From the NCBI GenBank assembly GCA_020029535.1, contig JAIBJM010000018.1:1-37649 (forward strand): a stretch of 37,649 bases of DNA, read 5' to 3'. The position numbers and the translations under genes are program-made. Below are positions 30,040 through 37,649 of the stretch, piece by piece. Source of the DNA: Gammaproteobacteria bacterium. Its GTDB lineage: Bacteria > Pseudomonadota > Gammaproteobacteria > Steroidobacterales > Steroidobacteraceae. The first letter of the stretch is position 1; each line of letters starts with the position of its first letter. The notes beneath the pieces were generated by a model. It worked only from the letters and a program-made list of their open reading frames with translations. It had not been told where the DNA came from and did not search any database.

Positions 30040-30637
30040 GCTCCCGCGCGGAATCACCGGCAGGCAGGACATCGTTGAATTCCGGAAAAGCTTTCCAGGC
30101 CGGCACCGGCGGCGCAAGCCCTTCGGCCGGCACATAGGGCGAGAGTTCCAGCAGCTGCAGGCGATGGATGTAGCGCGGACAGTTCGGAAAGATCTGGTGC
30201 GTGCTCACCCGCACGATGGCCTGCGCGCCCACCGTCAGCGGCAACAACGGATCAGCAGTATCGACCTGCGCGAAGCCATTGACGCGCAGCCGCTTCGGTT
30301 TCTCGAAGTCGATGAACAGCAGGCCGACGCGCGGATTGGCGCGCAGGTTGCCGAGACTCCGGAACATGCCGTTGCCGTCGAAACTCGGAAACGCCAGCGT
30401 TTGCTCGTCAAGCACACGCACGAAACCGGGCGCGCCACCCTTGTATGAACAGTCCGGAAAGCCATCGGCATCGGCGCTGGCCAGGAAGAAGCAGCGCTGC
30501 GCCTCGATGAAGGCGCGATCCTCGGCGGTGAAACGGCTGTGCAGCAGTTTTTCGGCCAGCCGATCGGCCAGGCGGCGGCTGTCGAATTCGTCCTGCAGCG
30601 CGCGCATCCCGGCGTGATACATCGGCGGGGTCTGCAT
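30032..30637 (-). CDS. Pyridoxamine 5'-phosphate oxidase-family (PPOX-type) flavin-binding protein
   Basis: The protein is about 201 residues of the split-barrel PPOX superfamily that binds FMN or a related flavin. Features typical of this subgroup are YHAGMRALQDEFDSRRLADRL at the start and FIEAQRCFFLASADADGFPDCSYKGG. Next come GFVRVLDEQTLAFPSFDGNGMFRSLGN, NPRVGLLFIDF and IFPNCPRYIHRLQ. The last of these is shared with proteins annotated as general pyridoxamine oxidase family, not PdxH. Substrate and partner are unknown. The start is uncertain: ATG at 30635-30637 is used here, but GTG at 30656-30658 and ATG at 30620-30622 are in frame, and the conserved part starts at the last. The stop overlaps the azurin-like start. 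Confidence 0.8.
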   Translation of the reverse strand: MQTPPMYHAGMRALQDEFDSRRLADRLAEKLLHSRFTAEDRAFIEAQRCFFLASADADGFPDCSYKGGAPGFVRVLDEQTLAFPSFDGNGMFRSLGNLRANPRVGLLFIDFEKPKRLRVNGFAQVDTADPLLPLTVGAQAIVRVSTHQIFPNCPRYIHRLQLLELSPYVPAEGLAPPVPAWKAFPEFNDVLPAGDSAREHG

Positions 30638-30683
30638 ACGAGCGGATTTGTAGCCCACTTCGGCGAAATGCGCCAGTCAGACC

Positions 30684-30817
30684 CTATTTCGCCGGCCGCA
30701 GCAGGCGATGCAGCGACACGCCTACCAGCGCCCCTGCTGGGCCATGACGCCCGATCCGATCACCGCCGCACTGAGCAACGCAGCGCCCAGTCCCTCGGCG
30801 GCTGCAAGCCGCCACAT
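30684..30817 (-). pseudogene. Collapsed remnant of a MIP channel gene (aquaporin/GlpF family)
   Basis: An ATG at 30815-30817 shares its A with the arsC TGA and opens a 31-codon frame, stopped by TAG at 30722-30724. It contains LAAAEGLGAALLSAAVIGSG followed by VMAQ, which matches the first membrane helix of MIP channels that accompany arsC (pattern AE-LGTALLLAAVVGSGIMAE). A second frame, out of register with the first, ends at TAG 30684-30686 and reads AGALVGVSLHRLLRPAK, like the last membrane helix and tail of the same family. About 180 residues in between are missing. I infer an internal deletion that left both gene ends. The match is from memory of the family, so treat it as likely, not proven. 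Confidence 0.6.
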
Positions 30818-31332
30818 CAAGCAGCCGTGGATTCGTTCGATGAGCGGCCGATGGAATCCAGCTCCTGCTTGAGCCGGATGCGGTCCAGTGAGGCAATGGG
30901 CAGGCTGGTGAAGATGCGGAGACGGCGCTCAAGTTCGTTGAACGCCGTGCGGAAGGTCAGCATGCGCTGTACATCACTACCAACCGCAGCGGCAGGATCC
31001 GGCATGCCCCAGTGCGCCGTCATCGGCTGACCCGGCCATACCGGGCAGACTTCACCAGCAGCCTGGTCACAGACCGTGAACACGAAATCGAGCGTCGGCG
31101 CGCCCGGCGCGGCGAATTCGTCCCAGCTCTTGCTGCGCAGTCCTGCGGTCGGCATGCGCAGACGGCCCAGCAGTTCCAGCGCCAGCGGATGCACCGCGCC
31201 CCTGGGGAAACTGCCTGCGCTGTGTGCAACGAAGCGGCCGGCGCCCCAATGCTTCAGCAGGCTCTCGGCCATGATGCTGCGCGCCGAGTTGCCGGTGCAG
31301 AGGAACAGCACACGGAACGGGCGATCGAGCAT
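30817..31332 (-). CDS. arsC: Arsenate reductase, ArsC of the low-molecular-weight phosphatase fold
   Basis: This type of ArsC reduces arsenate to arsenite using a relay of three cysteines and thioredoxin or a similar donor. The 171-residue protein begins RVLFLCTGNSARSIMAE, with the phosphatase-like C-x5-R loop (Cys12 to Arg18). Two further cysteines stand in VFTVCDQAAGEVCPVWPG (Cys88 and Cys96), followed by TAHWGMPDPA with the general-acid Asp. This pattern separates it from plain tyrosine phosphatases. It starts only three bases after the pstB stop and is thus tied to the phosphate-import operon, which also lets arsenate in. Its stop shares a base with the start of the MIP channel remnant. 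No arsR regulator is visible nearby. Confidence 0.88.
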   Translation of the reverse strand: MLDRPFRVLFLCTGNSARSIMAESLLKHWGAGRFVAHSAGSFPRGAVHPLALELLGRLRMPTAGLRSKSWDEFAAPGAPTLDFVFTVCDQAAGEVCPVWPGQPMTAHWGMPDPAAAVGSDVQRMLTFRTAFNELERRLRIFTSLPIASLDRIRLKQELDSIGRSSNESTAA

Positions 31333-31335
31333 GGC

Positions 31336-32232
31336 TCAGCCGTAACGACCCGTGATGTAGTCTTCGGTGGCCTTCTTGCTCGGGTTGGTGAAGATCGTGC
31401 TGGTCTGGTCGAACTCGATCAGCTCGCCCAGATACATGAAGGCGGTGTAGTCGGAAACGCGCGCCGCCTGCTGCATGTTGTGCGTGACGATGATGACCGT
31501 CACCTGCTCGCGCAGCGTGGCAATCAGCTCCTCGATGCGCGCGGTGGCGATCGGATCCAGCGCCGAGGTGGGTTCATCGAACAGCAGGATCTCGGGATTG
31601 GTGGCCAGTGCGCGCGCGATGCACAGACGCTGCTGCTGGCCACCGGACAACGACAGTCCGGAACTGTCCAGCCGGTCCTTGACCTCATCCCACAGCGCAG
31701 AGTTGCGCAGCGCCTTCTCCACTTCTTCCTCGATACGCACCCGCGAACGCATGCCGCTGACGCGCAGGCCATAGGCCACGTTCTCGAAGATCGACTTGGG
31801 AAAGGGATTCGGCTTCTGGAACACCATGCCGATGCGCATGCGCACTTCGATCGGATCGACGTTGCGCGCCACCAGATCGATGTTGTCCGGAAACAGCGTG
31901 ATCGAGCCTTCATAGCGCGTGCCCGGTGTCAGGTCGTGCATGCGGTTGAAGCAGCGCAGAAAGGTGCTCTTGCCGCAGCCTGACGGGCCGATCAGCGCGG
32001 TGACCTGCTTCTCCCGCATCTCGATGTTCAGCGACTTCAGGGCCTTGAAATCGCCGTAGTAGAAGTTCAGATCCGTGGCGCGCGCCTTGATCGGCGCGTT
32101 CTGCGCCGCACTGCGCCGCGTCTCGTCGATCGAAATCTGCAGCGCGCCGCGGCCGCTTTCGCGAATCGGCAGGATGCCGGTATCGACGTCGGTGGCCGGC
32201 ATGAAGGGTGCGGATTCGGCTTCAGATTGCAT
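31336..32232 (-). CDS. pstB: Phosphate ABC transporter ATP-binding protein
   Basis: PstB powers high-affinity phosphate import through PstCA. The 298-residue protein has Walker [10 protein letters not shown] (82-90), the Q-loop in [14 protein letters not shown] and the ABC signature LSGGQQQR (195-202). Walker [14 protein letters not shown] (215-227) and the switch His in IIVTHNM complete the set. About 48 residues precede the usual PstB start ([17 protein letters not shown]), including [19 protein letters not shown], which makes it some 40 residues longer than E. coli PstB (257). An ATG at the start and 3 bases of separation from pstA support the long form, but the tail may not be functionally important. 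Confidence 0.97.
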
Positions 32233-32235
32233 GGA

Positions 32236-33168
32236 TCACCAGTTGATTTTCTTGCGGTAACGGTACCGCACATAGATGGCAATGCCGTTCATCAGCAGCG
32301 TCATCCCGAGCAGGATGGCGCCAGCGGCAGCAGCGTTGACCTGGAATTCAGGATCGGGACGCGATACCCAGTTGAACATCTGGATCGGCATCACCGTGAA
32401 CGGATCGGACAGCCAGGTGAAGTTCACGTAGGGAAACTCAGCGCTCAACGGCGGTGTCGGCAAAAAGGCAATGAAGGCCAGCGCCCCGATGGTGATGATG
32501 GGCGCGGTTTCGCCGATGGCACGCGACAGGCCGATGATCATGCCAGTCAGGATGCCGCCGGTGGAATACGGCAGCACGTGATGCGCGGTCACTTCCCAGT
32601 GCGTGGCGCCCAGCGCATAGGCAGCCTCACGGATCGAGCGCGGCACCGCACGCAACGCCTCGCGCGTGGCCACGATGACGATGGGCAGGATCAGCAGCGA
32701 CAGAGTCAGACCCGCCGCGGCAATGCTGTGGCCAAGATTGAACTGGTAGACGAACAGCCCCAACGCCAGCAGGCCGTAGATGATGGAGGGGACGCCGGCC
32801 AGATTGGTGACATTGATCTCGATGACGGCGGTGAACCAGTTTTTCGGCGCGTATTCCTCCAGATAGATGGCCGCCGCCACACCGATCGGCATGGCCACCG
32901 CCACCGTCACCAGCATCACCAGCGAAGTGCCCACCCAGGCCGACAGGATGCCGGCACGCTGCGCATTGCGCGACGGGAACGAGGTGAAGAAATCCCAGCC
33001 GAAGCGCGCTGCGCCATCGCGCACCAGATCGAGGAACAGGATGGCCAGCGTGGCCAGCGCGGCAAACATCACCGTCATGCCCAGCAGCACGAACAGCTGG
33101 TCGAACAGCTTGCGGCGCTGCACGTCGCGGCGCAGCTGTTCGCTGACCACACCGGTCGCGGCGGCCAT
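32236..33168 (-). CDS. pstA: Phosphate ABC transporter permease PstA
   Basis: PstA is one of the two inner-membrane subunits of the phosphate importer. The protein has 310 residues with about six hydrophobic segments. The first follows a charged cytoplasmic N-terminus (LRRDVQRRKLFDQ). The permease coupling loop is SIREAAYALGATHWEVTAHHVLP, with the EAA and G of the ABC permease motif. AIYLEEYAPKNWF and the C-terminal NGIAIYVRYRYRKKINW are also PstA-like. The ATG at 33166-33168 shares a base with the pstC TGA. Confidence 0.97.
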   Translation of the reverse strand: MAAATGVVSEQLRRDVQRRKLFDQLFVLLGMTVMFAALATLAILFLDLVRDGAARFGWDFFTSFPSRNAQRAGILSAWVGTSLVMLVTVAVAMPIGVAAAIYLEEYAPKNWFTAVIEINVTNLAGVPSIIYGLLALGLFVYQFNLGHSIAAAGLTLSLLILPIVIVATREALRAVPRSIREAAYALGATHWEVTAHHVLPYSTGGILTGMIIGLSRAIGETAPIITIGALAFIAFLPTPPLSAEFPYVNFTWLSDPFTVMPIQMFNWVSRPDPEFQVNAAAAGAILLGMTLLMNGIAIYVRYRYRKKINW

Positions 33169-34097
33169 CAGTACTCCTCCCGGAAACGCCGCGTCAGCGC
33201 GAAGCCCGCGATGTTGAAGATCAACGTGGTCACCATCAGCACCAGACCGGCCGCGAAGATCGACTGATAGCCGATGCTGTCATGCGGCAGATCGCCGAGG
33301 CTGACCTGCACGATGAAGGCGGTGATGGTCGCCGCGGATTCCAGCGGATTGAAAGTCAGATTGGGCTGCAGGCCGGCGGCGACGGCCACCACCATGGTCT
33401 CGCCCACCGCGCGCGAGATGCCGAGGATGTAGGCGGCAGCGATACCCGACAGCGCGCCCGGCACCACCACACGCGTGGCGGTCTGGAAGCGGGTGGCGCC
33501 CATGGCGTAACTGCCCTCGCGCATGTAGTTGGGCACCGCACGCATGGCGTCCTCGCTGACCGAGGCCACGTAGGGAATGATCATCAGGCCGATCACCAGG
33601 CCCGGGCTCAGCATGTTGAAGCCCGGCAGGCCCGGAATGAATTTCTGCAACAGCGGTGTCACCACCATCAATGCGAAGTAGCCGTACACCACCGTCGGTA
33701 CCGCACCCAGCAATTCCAGAACCGGTTTGATGATCTCGCGCAGTTTGTGCGGCGCGAATTCGCTGAGATAGATGGCAATGATGGTGCCGCAGGGAATGGC
33801 CACGCACAGCGCCACCATGGTCGTCACCAGCGTGCCGGCCAGCAGCGGCAGGATGCCGAAGCGCGGTTCGGCGAACATCGGCGTCCACATGGTGTCGGTG
33901 AAGAAGTCGGCCAGCGACACGGTCTTGAAGAAAGGTACCGATTCGGACACCAGGATGTAGACGATGGATATCGTGGTGACCACCGCCACCAGCGCCGATG
34001 CCAGCAACACCGCTTCAATGACACGGTCGCGGGCCCTGCGTACCCGCAGTCGCTGTCTGATTGCCGCTGCGCCCGGCCCTGAAGTGATATCCGACAT
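33168..34097 (-). CDS. pstC: Phosphate ABC transporter permease PstC
   Basis: PstC is the partner of PstA in the membrane part of the phosphate importer. It has 309 residues, with a basic cytoplasmic start (IRQRLRVRRARDRVIEAV), then about six membrane helices. The coupling loop MREGSYAMGATRFQTATRVVVPGALSGI and the substrate-path segment LLGAVPTVVYGYFAL are present, the latter typical of PstC. It follows pstS after a 112-base gap holding a strong hairpin, and overlaps pstA by one base. There is no obvious Shine-Dalgarno before its ATG. Confidence 0.97.
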   Translation of the reverse strand: MSDITSGPGAAAIRQRLRVRRARDRVIEAVLLASALVAVVTTISIVYILVSESVPFFKTVSLADFFTDTMWTPMFAEPRFGILPLLAGTLVTTMVALCVAIPCGTIIAIYLSEFAPHKLREIIKPVLELLGAVPTVVYGYFALMVVTPLLQKFIPGLPGFNMLSPGLVIGLMIIPYVASVSEDAMRAVPNYMREGSYAMGATRFQTATRVVVPGALSGIAAAYILGISRAVGETMVVAVAAGLQPNLTFNPLESAATITAFIVQVSLGDLPHDSIGYQSIFAAGLVLMVTTLIFNIAGFALTRRFREEY

Positions 34098-34123
34098 AGC
34101 TGTGTATCCGTGGCCGGCGATAC

Positions 34124-34154
34124 GGGCGACGGAGCCGGAAGCGCTCCGCCGCCC
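34124..34154 (-). promoter_or_regulatory. Strong hairpin between pstS and pstC
   Basis: An inverted repeat GGGCG-A-CGGAGC (34124-34135) pairs with GCTCCG-C-CGCCC (34143-34154), giving 11 paired bases and one mismatch around a 7-base loop. On the minus strand it lies 55 bases past the pstS stop and is not followed by a T run, so it does not look like a standard terminator. A role in protecting the 3-prime end of pstS mRNA, so that binding protein is made in excess over permease, is inferred from other binding-protein operons. Confidence 0.55.
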
Positions 34155-34209
34155 GCAGTTTAACCCAGCACTGCGCGGCCGTAAGCCGGGCGCTGGCGCA
34201 TCGCGAGGA

Positions 34210-35211
34210 TCAGTGCTTGCCTTCGCGCTTCAGCAGTTCCTCGACCTTGAGACCCACTTCCGGCACGCCACCGAAGCCGGTGCCGGTCTTGCCGGCCTTG
34301 AAGTTGGCGGAGGCGATCTTGTAGGCCTCCGCGGACAGCGGCACATACTTGACTTCGGTAACCAGCGCCGGGCCCTTGGTCAGATAGAACTCGACGAACT
34401 CGCGCACTTCCGGCTTGGCCACCGACGCCGCGTTGACGTAGATGAACAGCGGGCGCGACAGCGGCTCATAGCTGCCATCCAGCACACCGGCTGCCGACGG
34501 CAGCACCGCCTGGCCCTTGGCGTTGACCACCTTCAGCGCCTTCATGCGTGCGGCATTCGGCGCGTAGTAGGCATAACCGAAGTAGGCCAGTGCGTTGGCA
34601 TCGGCCTCCACGCCCTGCACCAGCACGTTGTCGTCCTCGCTGGCGGTGAAATCACCGCGGCTGGACTTGGACTTGCCGTTGATGGCTTCGGTGAAGTAGT
34701 CGAAGGTGCCCGAATCGGCGCCCGGCCCGAACAGCTTCAGCGGCGCATTCGGCCACTTCGGATTGACCTGGTTCCAGCGCGTGATCTTGCCCTGCGCCGC
34801 CGGCTCCCACATCTTCTTCAGCTCGGCCACCGTGATCTGGTCCACCCAGGTGGCCTTCGGGTTCACCACCACGGTCAACGCGTCATAGGCGACCGGCAGC
34901 TCGATGTACTTGATGCCCGCGGCGGCGCAGGCCTGCATTTCGGCGGCCAGGATCGGACGCGAGGCGTCCGAAATGTCGATCTCGCCGCGGCAGAAGCGCT
35001 TGAAACCGCCGCCGGTGCCGGCGATGCCCACCGTGACGCGCACCTTGCCGCGCTTCTGGATCTGGAATTCTTCGGCCACCGCTTCGGTGATCGGGAACAC
35101 CGTGCTGGAACCGTCCACCTTGACGGTGGACTGCGCGGCGGCGATGTGCGGCGCCGCGGACAGCGCCAGCGCGGCCAGCGTCAGCATCGTGTTGAAGGGT
35201 CGGAATTTCAT
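34210..35211 (-). CDS. pstS: Periplasmic phosphate-binding protein
   Basis: PstS captures phosphate in the periplasm and hands it to PstCA. The 333-residue precursor has a Sec signal peptide ([20 protein letters not shown] then PHIAAAQ). The mature start [20 protein letters not shown] contains the phosphate-binding GSSTVFP segment. [27 protein letters not shown], the [17 protein letters not shown] phosphate-site region and [13 protein letters not shown] are family features. A GAGGA Shine-Dalgarno stands about 8 bases before the ATG. Gene order phoU-pstS-pstC-pstA-pstB, with phoU first, differs from E. coli where phoU is last. Confidence 0.97.
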
Positions 35212-35240
35212 GGCTTGTCCTCTTTAGGCTTCAGGGATAT

Positions 35241-35987
35241 TCAGGGTACCGGCACCGCGACCGGGCTCGGCAGTGTTCCGCGCAGTTCCTTTTCGACATC
35301 TTCGAGCCGCGTATGGCGCACATCCTTGCCGTGCACCATGTAGATCACGTATTCGCAGAGGTTCTTGGCGTGATCGCCAACGCGCTCCAGCGAGCGCACC
35401 ACCCACATCACATCCAGCGAGCGGCGGATCATGCGCGGGTCTTCCATCATGAAGGTGATGCACTGGCGCTGGATGGCCTCGTACTCGTCGTCGACGGCGC
35501 GGTCGCGCCGCGCCACCTGCAGCGCCAGCTCGGCATCGAGCCGGGCGAAGGCATCCAGCGCATCGTGCACCATCGAAGAGACCAGCTGCCCGAAGTGGCG
35601 CAGCTCGCGATAGCGGCTGGATGGCCGCTCGCGCCCCGCCAGGCGCGCGGCGATGGTGGCAATCTTCTCGCCCTCATCGCCGATGCGCTCCAGGTCGGTG
35701 ATGGTCTTCAGCACCGCAATCAGCAGGCGCAGATCCGAGGCAGCCGGGCTGCGCGTGGCGAGGATGCGGCTGCAGTCCTCGTCGATGGTGCGTTCGAGCT
35801 GGTTCACCAGCAGTTCTTCCCGCGCCACCGTCAGCAGTACCTGCGAGTCCGCATCCACAATCGCGCCGAGCGCCTGTGACAGCTGGCGCTCGACCAGTCC
35901 GCCCATCTCCAGCACGCGGCTGCGTACCCGTTCCAGGTCTTCGTTGAAACGGCTGGAAATGTGATGACTGAGTGCTTCGGTATCCAT
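35241..35987 (-). CDS. phoU: Phosphate signalling and transport regulator PhoU
   Basis: PhoU links the Pst transporter to the PhoR/PhoB system and keeps it in check when phosphate is plentiful. The 248-residue all-helical protein has two similar three-helix halves. The first includes ISSRFNEDLERVRSRVLEMGGLVERQL and ITDLERIGDEGEKIA. The second includes VVRSLERVGDHAKNLCEYVIYMV, with the metal-cluster ERxGDxxxNxxE-type motif in both. It lies 12 bases after the porin gene and 29 bases before pstS, so it should be induced with them. Confidence 0.97.
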   Translation of the reverse strand: MDTEALSHHISSRFNEDLERVRSRVLEMGGLVERQLSQALGAIVDADSQVLLTVAREELLVNQLERTIDEDCSRILATRSPAASDLRLLIAVLKTITDLERIGDEGEKIATIAARLAGRERPSSRYRELRHFGQLVSSMVHDALDAFARLDAELALQVARRDRAVDDEYEAIQRQCITFMMEDPRMIRRSLDVMWVVRSLERVGDHAKNLCEYVIYMVHGKDVRHTRLEDVEKELRGTLPSPVAVPVP

Positions 35988-35999
35988 CGCTGCTTCCTG

Positions 36000-37367
36000 T
36001 CAGAACTTGTAGTTCAGATCCAGCTGCAGGCGCTTGTAGTCGCGGTCGCGGCCGGTACTACCCGACGCCACGCCATCGATGAAGCGCGTGTTCATGAAGT
36101 AGGTGCCGTTCAGCGTCCAGTTGGTGGCCGGAACATAGGCGGCCTTGATGACACTGCCGTTACCGTCGGTCAAGCCACCGTTGAAGTCCGAGTCATGGAA
36201 CCCGCCCCAGATGGCATCCTTTTCAGACACCTGGTAGACATAGCCGATCTCCCAGGTCCCGGCGGCGGCAGCGCGGTTGAAGGTAATGCCGAACGAGGTG
36301 GCGGTGTCCAGCTTTTCGTTGGCCACCGGATTGACCTCGGCCTTGGTGTTCTTCATGTAGTCGGCGAACACTGTGACCGGGAAACGGCCCAACTTGAAGT
36401 CGGCCTGCACCAGCGCCTGGACCATGTTGAAGTCGCTGGCCAGCGCACTGCAACCGCTGTCGGCGGCGCCATTGTTGTCATAGGTGGTATTGCCGTTGGT
36501 GCTGCCCGAGAACGCGGCGTTGATGTTGCAGGTGCTGGCCGCTGTACCCGCCAGCGCGGTGGCCGAGGCCACCTCGTCCTTCACATGCGTGATATCGAAA
36601 TAGCCCAGCGCGCCCAGCAGATTCACGCTGCCCACCGGCTGACGGAAGGCCAGCTGCGCGCCCACCATCTTGGCGTCGGTGCGGCCGGCAGCCCGGCTGG
36701 CCGTGGCGGTGTCGTTGGCATGGCGCTCGCCGAGCCAGGTGTAGTACAGGCCCGCCGACCAGGGACCCGTGGCCAGTTTCACCGCCGCGCCTTCCGGAGT
36801 CAGATCGCCGTCCCAGAAATAACTGGCGGTGCGGATCCAGGGCTGCGGCTGCTTGCCCAGCACCACGTTGGCGAAGCTGGCGGCTTTCCAGTCCACATAG
36901 GCCAGGTCGATGCCCAGCGACTTGCGCGACCAGGCTTCGCCCAGTGTCTGGTTGGTCGAACGCGGGTTGTCGTCACCGGTATTGACCGTCGACAGCTGGA
37001 TGCGGCCGTTGATCTTGTCGTTGACCTTTGCAGCAACGCCGAAGCGCAGGCGGATGCGATCGCGCTGGCGCGAGCTGGCGTCGATATTGGTGGCCGGCTC
37101 GTCCTGGATCAGCTCGTAGCGGTAACGCAGATCGCCGCTCCAGGTGTACTTGGAAACGGCAGTCTTCAGGTTGCTCACATCCACGGCCTCCTGGGCGGCT
37201 TCCTTGCGGGCACCCTGGGCATTGGACTTCAGGTACTCGACCTCGGACTGCAGGCGTTCGATCTGTTCCTGGATCTGTTGCAGGCGGTCGGTGGTCTCGG
37301 GGGCATTCTGGGCCAGGGCCGGCGTGGCCAGCAGCGCGGCGGCACCAGCAATCAGGGTCTTCTTCAC
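36000..37367 (-). CDS. Putative outer-membrane porin heading the pst cluster
   Basis: The 455-residue protein has a signal peptide (KKTLIAGAAALLATPALAQ) and a periplasmic coiled coil (TTDRLQQIQEQIERLQSEVEYLKSNA, about residues 25-52). The rest is a beta-barrel with alternating aromatic strands, such as WSGDLRYRYELIQD, RIRLRFGVAAKVNDKINGRI and RLQLDLNYKF. It ends in Phe as outer-membrane barrels do. It looks like the broad putative-porin family, not an OprO/OprP orthologue I can name. The start is GTG 37365-37367 with GGGAG 7 bases before it. Two Pho-box-like sites upstream and phoU 12 bases downstream argue for a phosphate- or phosphoester-uptake porin; that role is inference. Confidence 0.88.
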   Translation of the reverse strand: MKKTLIAGAAALLATPALAQNAPETTDRLQQIQEQIERLQSEVEYLKSNAQGARKEAAQEAVDVSNLKTAVSKYTWSGDLRYRYELIQDEPATNIDASSRQRDRIRLRFGVAAKVNDKINGRIQLSTVNTGDDNPRSTNQTLGEAWSRKSLGIDLAYVDWKAASFANVVLGKQPQPWIRTASYFWDGDLTPEGAAVKLATGPWSAGLYYTWLGERHANDTATASRAAGRTDAKMVGAQLAFRQPVGSVNLLGALGYFDITHVKDEVASATALAGTAASTCNINAAFSGSTNGNTTYDNNGAADSGCSALASDFNMVQALVQADFKLGRFPVTVFADYMKNTKAEVNPVANEKLDTATSFGITFNRAAAAGTWEIGYVYQVSEKDAIWGGFHDSDFNGGLTDGNGSVIKAAYVPATNWTLNGTYFMNTRFIDGVASGSTGRDRDYKRLQLDLNYKF

Positions 37368-37400
37368 AGTGTTCTCCCATGCGGAATGAAGCTGGCAGGC

Positions 37401-37434
37401 TTTATACGTATGGCTGGTGACAGTTTTGTGTCAC
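37401..37434 (-). promoter_or_regulatory. Probable PhoB-activated promoter of the porin-phoU-pst operon (proximal box plus -10)
   Basis: On the minus strand GTGACACAAAACTGTCAC (37417-37434) has the Pho-box layout of two 7-mers around AAAA. The near half CTGTCAC matches the consensus CTGTCA(T/C) fully and the far half GTGACAC matches four of seven. Exactly 10 bases later stands TATAAA (37401-37406), the spacing expected when a Pho box replaces the -35 element. The same bases also form a perfect 7-base inverted repeat (37416-37435), so a different dimeric regulator cannot be excluded. Confidence 0.65.
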
Positions 37435-37465
37435 CGCAGTGCATGTCATCTGTCTTACGCGCGAC

Positions 37466-37483
37466 TTGACAGTTTTGTTGCAG
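37466..37483 (-). promoter_or_regulatory. Second Pho-box-like site upstream of the porin
   Basis: On the minus strand CTGCAACAAAACTGTCAA has the same half-AAAA-half layout, with the downstream half CTGTCAA matching six of seven consensus positions. It shares an exact 12-base direct repeat (TGACAGTTTTGT on the plus strand) with the proximal box, 49 bases away. Between them lie two more 7-mers resembling half-sites, ATGTCAT and CTGTCTT on the plus strand (37443-37456). Confidence 0.5.
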
Positions 37484-37515
37484 CCCGATAACACCTGCGG
37501 GCCGCTCGGTGGCGC

Positions 37516-37544
37516 TTGCTCCCCGCCCGGCCGCGCCGTATAAG
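37516..37544 (+). promoter_or_regulatory. Likely sigma-70 promoter of dapE
   Basis: TTGCTC (37516-37521) and TATAAG (37539-37544) are separated by 17 bases, predicting a start near 37551 and a leader of about 30 bases. It diverges from the porin promoter within the same 212-base intergenic region (37368-37579). Confidence 0.55.
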
Positions 37545-37579
37545 GCGCGTGCCCTTTACGATCCGCGCCACAGGAAGCC

Positions 37580-37649
37580 ATGTCCGCGACGCTTGAGCTG
37601 ACCCAGGATCTGATTGCCCGCAATTCGATCACCCCCGCCGACGAGGGCT
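37580..37649 (+). CDS. dapE: Succinyl-diaminopimelate desuccinylase, N-terminal fragment (cut by window edge)
   Basis: DapE removes succinate from N-succinyl-LL-diaminopimelate, the step after DapC. Only 23 codons are visible: MSATLELTQDLIARNSITPA then DEG. The pattern ELTQxLIxRxSxTPxDxG is that of DapE N-termini (E. coli IELTQQLIRRPSLSPDDAG). A clear AGGAAG Shine-Dalgarno lies before the ATG (37580-37582). The call rests on this short piece plus the presence of dapC and dapD elsewhere in the window. Other M20-family peptidases are less likely. Confidence 0.8.
   Translation, partial: MSATLELTQDLIARNSITPADEG

Follow-up and report, generated by a model that had tools for sequence, protein, structure and literature searches.

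A predicted PhoB-activated promoter ahead of a porin-phoU-pst gene cluster in a Steroidobacteraceae genome

The stretch of DNA analysed here (hereafter, the window) comprises the entire contig C45, of 37,649 bases, from a draft genome of 2.87 Mb. Its minus strand carries, in order of transcription, a gene for a Porin_5 porin, phoU, pstS, pstC, pstA, pstB and a gene with the LMW-phosphatase fold, separated by intergenic gaps of 12, 29, 112, -1, 3 and 3 bp. The porin gene (36000..37367) starts with GTG, encodes 455 aa and matches the Porin_5 model (PF16930) with 96.5 bits in Pfam against a cut-off of 22; it has no match among the NCBIfam models, and a search for PDB relatives returned a single weak match (E 0.0086, with no stretch passing alone) that was set aside. 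The named relatives retrieved in the porin homologue search are all metagenome-assembled genomes (MAGs), gammaproteobacterial or proteobacterial, three of them assigned to the Steroidobacteraceae. The genes that follow the porin constitute a pst operon in which each product exceeds at least one NCBIfam cut-off: phoU (35241..35987; TIGR02135, 234 bits against 130.25), pstS (34210..35211; TIGR02136 type, 308.1 bits against 206.6), pstC (33168..34097; TIGR02138, 276 bits against 196.45), pstA (32236..33168; TIGR00974, 277.8 bits against 193.45) and pstB (31336..32232; TIGR00972, 386.5 bits against 343.2).

The last gene of the cluster (30817..31332, minus strand) had been labelled arsC in the initial annotation, a name that the curated models do not sustain. 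Its product matches the Pfam LMWPc model (53.8 bits against a cut-off of 23.2) and falls below every curated arsenate-reductase cut-off, scoring 64.8, 53.5 and 38.1 bits on three ArsC models with cut-offs of 174.3, 215 and 157.6. No homologue was found at E 1e-10 in the available DNA of 44 named loci (pstB is present in 21), and the gene therefore looks like a local addition to the cluster.

Upstream of the porin lies a gap of 212 bp, common to the porin and to a divergent gene truncated at the contig end (37580-37649), the first 23 codons of which resemble, by eye, the start of dapE. A dapE-like ORF occupies the equivalent place in the relative L042, where the gene order is phoB, phoU, the dapE-like gene (on the opposite strand) and the porin. 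In the genome of the window, phoR is truncated at the start of another contig, C94 (L033, 1-1111); because L042 joins phoB, phoU, the dapE-like gene and the porin in that order, the dapE end of C45 and the phoR end of C94 are probably adjacent in the genome. L041, L042 and L045 have a phoU after phoB and a second one after the porin; a single phoU was found in the genome of the window, and another may sit in an assembly gap. On the dapE side of the gap, the sequence CCGTATAAGG (37536-37545, plus strand), to which a similar ttatacgg corresponds on the opposite strand of several relatives, perhaps holds the -10 element of the dapE-like gene.

The minus strand of the gap carries a proximal Pho box, GTGACAC-AAAA-CTGTCAC (37434-37417), with two half-sites in 11-bp register. 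Ten bases (37416-37407) separate it from the -10 hexamer TATAAA (37406-37401), the box standing in the place of a -35 element. Transcription starts 6-8 bases beyond a -10 hexamer, so the start is predicted at 37393..37395, where the A at 37393 is the purine. The box also forms a dyad, GTGACA-N6-TGTCAC, and its first half-site differs from CTGTCAY at two positions. Its arrangement is that of the Pho box as defined in the available text of PMC4415409, with two 7-bp direct repeats and a 4-bp spacer. The initial annotation had described two sites sharing the layout of a 7-mer, AAAA and CTGTCA(A/C), the nearer of them exactly 10 bases from TATAAA, and both the layout and the spacing are borne out by the coordinates.

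The window was scanned with a PhoB position weight matrix (PWM) compiled from nine E. coli K-12 sites, located upstream of phoA, phoB (two sites), pstS (two sites), phoE, ugpB (two sites) and phoH; phnC was excluded, as no clear box was found there. These boxes were retrieved from the K-12 record by gene coordinates and located with a consensus. Among the 75,264 positions scored on both strands of the window, the proximal box ranks first, with 16.7 bits, followed by a plus-strand site at 37443-37460 (14.5 bits) and by the distal box (12.4 bits), so that the two boxes of the initial annotation occupy ranks 1 and 3. With a half-site-only matrix, in which the spacer is silenced, the proximal box drops to rank 8 and the distal box to rank 24, which indicates that part of the PWM signal is A/T-richness in G+C-rich sequence. 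A site scoring at least 10 with TATAA located 10 bases downstream appeared in none of 5000 dinucleotide shuffles of the 212-bp gap, and the proximal box is very probably a site of PhoB activation, as predicted from its sequence and position.

The second annotated box, CTGCAAC-AAAA-CTGTCAA (37483-37466, minus strand), lies inside a longer distal array, GTGTTAT-CGGG-CTGCAAC-AAAA-CTGTCAA (37494-37466, minus strand), that comprises three half-sites in 11-bp register, with matches at -88, -77 and -66 relative to TATAAA; the additional half-site, GTGTTAT (37494-37488, minus strand), had not been reported in the initial annotation. The exact 12-base direct repeat claimed for the two boxes is present, with copies of ACAAAACTGTCA at 37478-37467 and 37429-37418 on the minus strand, 49 bases apart, and the plus strand of the window lacks it. 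Repeats of at least 12 bases arose in 10 of 5000 dinucleotide shuffles of the intergenic region. Between the two boxes stands a reverse-oriented Pho-box-like site absent from the earlier description, ATGTCAT-CTGT-CTTACGC (37443..37460, plus strand), for which no -10 element was seen by eye at a suitable distance.

It is possible, if not the reading we favour, that only the proximal box is functional, the distal repeat and the reverse site having arisen by chance or representing decayed copies with no function. The 49-bp offset between the distal and proximal elements is not a multiple of 11, which places the distal array out of 11-bp register with the proximal box. The congeners L042, L045 and L012 carry a different distal element, located 37 bp upstream, and L041 has no second site scoring at least 6. 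Against this reading, at least one coding-strand site of at least 12.4 bits was obtained in just 23 of 5000 shuffles, and two non-overlapping ones in 0 of 5000; a third half-site accompanies the distal site in register, and stacked boxes are also found at E. coli pstS. The distal box exceeds local chance, yet its position is not conserved, and the array would be auxiliary at most, or recently arisen.

Conservation was assessed in 43 upstream regions, corresponding to the window and to 42 of the 44 loci with porin homologues (L081 and L083, without upstream DNA, were left out). Loci taken to be the same (L041/L005, L042/L004, L045/L006 and L054/L007) contributed one entry each per survey. The best PWM site scores at least 10 in 22 of the 43 regions, a level reached by 5.4% of 1173 control segments drawn from those loci. 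A TATAA-type hexamer starts exactly 10 bases past a listed site in ten of the 43 (the window, L041-L045, L049 and L054-L056), and likewise in four more (L067, L069, L070 and L072), in at least three of which the hexamer overlaps a third half-site. Eighteen hand-picked loci were then considered for alignment on TATAA, 16 of which have this element; L079 and L065 lack it within 330 bp. Among the 16 aligned promoters, CTGTCAY ends 10 bases before TATAA in the window and in seven relatives. The mean half-site scores over these promoters peak at -17, -28 and -50, with a much lower value at -39, in an averaging that took the first, not the last, TATAA for L055 and L056 and hence leans towards the register. 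In six of the relatives (L046, L048-L051 and L053), half-site-like words occupy four positions in 11-bp register, with G+C-rich spacers, and end 10 bases before TATAA; scores are highest at the farthest position (mean of 9.3 at -50) and low at the one next to the -10 element (1.3 at -17). The layout is kept when the porin has another upstream neighbour, namely phoU in L041 or pstB in L043, L044 and L054. The latter three loci show the order pstB-porin-pstS-pstC-pstA, with no phoU found at the locus and the Pho box still located before the porin.

The spacing also defines a genome-wide signature within the genus. Eight of the 15 genus genomes each contain the pattern CTGTCAY-N10-TATAA exactly once, with no match in the reversed control, and the sole exact match in the genome under study is that of the window. 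Of these eight matches, five are located before this porin and three before pstS. Three of the five porin-side matches are the contigs of L041, L042 and L045, so the signature and the upstream survey overlap. The three pstS-side matches occur in genomes without a match to this porin, and the pstS products concerned are over the cut-off for PRK10918 and TIGR00975. The exact signature is absent from the other seven genomes, five of them 72-86% complete and two 93% and 97% complete; allowing one mismatch, these seven yield 26 matches versus 28 in the control, and one of the 26 (in G014) is positioned before pstS. A relaxed pattern, TGTCAY-N10-TATRA with up to one mismatch, was discarded for the genome of the window, where it gives 23 matches versus 21 in the reversed control, leaving the single exact match of the window as the only informative one. 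The signature is thus strong, and not universal in the genus.

Two PstS types are found in the genus: that of the window belongs to TIGR02136, and TIGR00975 is over its cut-off in all ten congeners searched, none of which has a close homologue of this porin. The box-N10-TATAA arrangement is present in four of 12 upstream regions of this other pstS type (from ten genomes), in one case with a mismatch; one of the four, L150, has a PWM score of only 2.1. In a further region a box is present but TATAA is absent, and nothing convincing was seen in the remainder.

The genome encodes the cognate regulator. PhoB is found on contig C94 and scores 341.5 bits on TIGR02154, above the equivalog cut-off of 296.2. 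The residues corresponding to Q178-L180, N187-E191, H198-R203 and Q216-G220 of E. coli PhoB, C-terminal stretches that we take to be the DNA-contacting recognition helix and wing, are identical in this PhoB and in those of three relatives. Upstream of phoB, a box scoring at least 10 is present in 12 of 22 regions, a count that leaves out L061, where the start lies off the contig. The region upstream of the phoB gene of this genome reaches a best score of only 8.6; inspection by eye makes out TTGTCAC-GGGA-TGGCAAC-ATAA-ATGTCAC there, a series of three half-sites in 11-bp register. The available text of PMC10294691 describes sites before pstS and phoB as broadly conserved in gammaproteobacteria and presents models with strict box-to-promoter spacing.

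We put forward, with a probability of about 0.9, that the minus-strand segment 37401-37434 is a PhoB-activated sigma-70 promoter that serves the porin gene, phoU and the pstSCAB genes, with the LMW-phosphatase-fold gene probably included. The sites, their spacing, their conservation and the presence of PhoB are read from the sequence, and on this basis we infer the binding, the start site, the phosphate response, the extent of the transcript and the role of the distal sites. Under low phosphate, PhoR would phosphorylate PhoB, a dimer of which would bind head-to-tail on GTGACAC-AAAA-CTGTCAC and replace the -35 element. RNA polymerase would then initiate from TATAAA near 37394, generating a transcript that would span the porin, phoU, pstSCAB and probably the phosphatase-fold gene. 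The distal array and the site in reverse orientation would be auxiliary at most, perhaps increasing the occupancy by PhoB. The proposal of PhoB control made in the initial annotation is essentially right: the PWM score, the conserved spacing, the signature and the presence of PhoB speak for the proximal box. A contribution of both boxes is less well supported, since the distal one keeps neither its position nor the register. The element so described would be a PhoB promoter of ordinary design, retained in much of the genus but not throughout it.

A single promoter for the whole cluster, through the gene first called arsC, is less well supported than PhoB control itself; the packing of the genes agrees with it, as does the absence of any other strong box. 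We regard as unlikely, and still worth weighing, the alternative in which further promoters operate within the cluster, for example after pstS, and the porin promoter mainly drives porin-phoU-pstS. In its favour, the 112-bp gap between pstS and pstC (34098..34209, minus strand) contains a strong hairpin (fold of -56.2 kcal/mol, computed with no shuffled control), and strong hairpins of differing sequence are present in this gap in 12 of the 12 relatives folded (gap ends from tblastn, again with no shuffled control). As a consequence of this hairpin, the downstream transcript may be reduced. The pstS-pstC hairpin is possibly a processing or partial termination point, and it may overlap the pstC start in some relatives. 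Against additional promoters, no terminator-like match was detected in the pstS-pstC gap, and no strong minus-strand Pho box was found within 30817-35999, where the best score is 7.98. No sigma-70 -35/-10 match was found in 30600-37649 either, though this says little with only 1.2 expected by chance.

Other alternatives concern the identity of the regulator and of its target. Because the dyad is mostly kept, a reverse box is present and the distal array is out of register, one might suppose that PhoB binds in mixed orientations, or that a second regulator shares the site, giving a switch that would differ from the head-to-tail arrangement of E. coli; we consider this improbable. We give equally little credence to the proposal that the proximal box is a dyad, TGACA-N6-TGTCA, read by another symmetric regulator instead of PhoB. 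The dyad is perfect in six of the nine genus promoters found (the window, L012, L041, L042, L045 and L151) and has one mismatch in L152, but it is missing from the congeners L149 and L150 and, beyond the 15-genome set, from L043, L044 and L054, all of which keep the position of the box and its 10-bp spacing. Just two copies of the exact dyad exist in the genome of the window, against one in the control, so that no regulon is seen; half-sites of the form CTGACAC and CTGACGC exist in E. coli ugpB and phoB. Finally, although the sites sit in a gap common to both genes, service to the divergent dapE-like gene can be dismissed on the changes of upstream neighbour among the relatives noted above, and a separate TATAAG (37539-37544, plus strand) lies nearer the dapE-like start.

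Activation by PhoB from the proximal box hence remains our preferred account, which places a Porin_5-family porin, at the head of a pst cluster, under likely phosphate control in a lineage represented here, among the named relatives, by MAGs alone. No title among the literature matches listed deals with a porin-pst promoter in this lineage. The pattern CTGTCAY-N10-TATAA provides a mark, matched once per genome in eight of the 15 genus genomes, of the main Pho promoter. No principle is changed by this promoter.

The promoter can be compared with three known ones of E. coli. As in phoA, a single 18-bp Pho box is followed, after 10 bases, by a TATA-type -10 element (TATAGT in phoA); unlike phoA, in which the first half-site is CTGTCAT, the window has GTGACAC at this position, and a distal array 49 bp upstream. 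The pstS promoter of pstSCAB-phoU likewise has stacked Pho boxes before a Pst operon, but the operon of the window begins with the porin and phoU, and its two arrays are out of 11-bp register. The PhoB-controlled porin gene phoE is also preceded by a Pho box; in the K-12 record, however, phoE does not stand beside pst genes, whereas the window has a Porin_5-family porin at the head of its pst cluster. Parallels are also found among the named relatives L041-L056, where 14 of the 16 loci (all except L047 and L055) have the porin adjoining pst genes. Many of them share the box-N10-TATAA arrangement, with a gene order that varies, and one group among them differs from the window in its four register positions with G+C-rich spacers.
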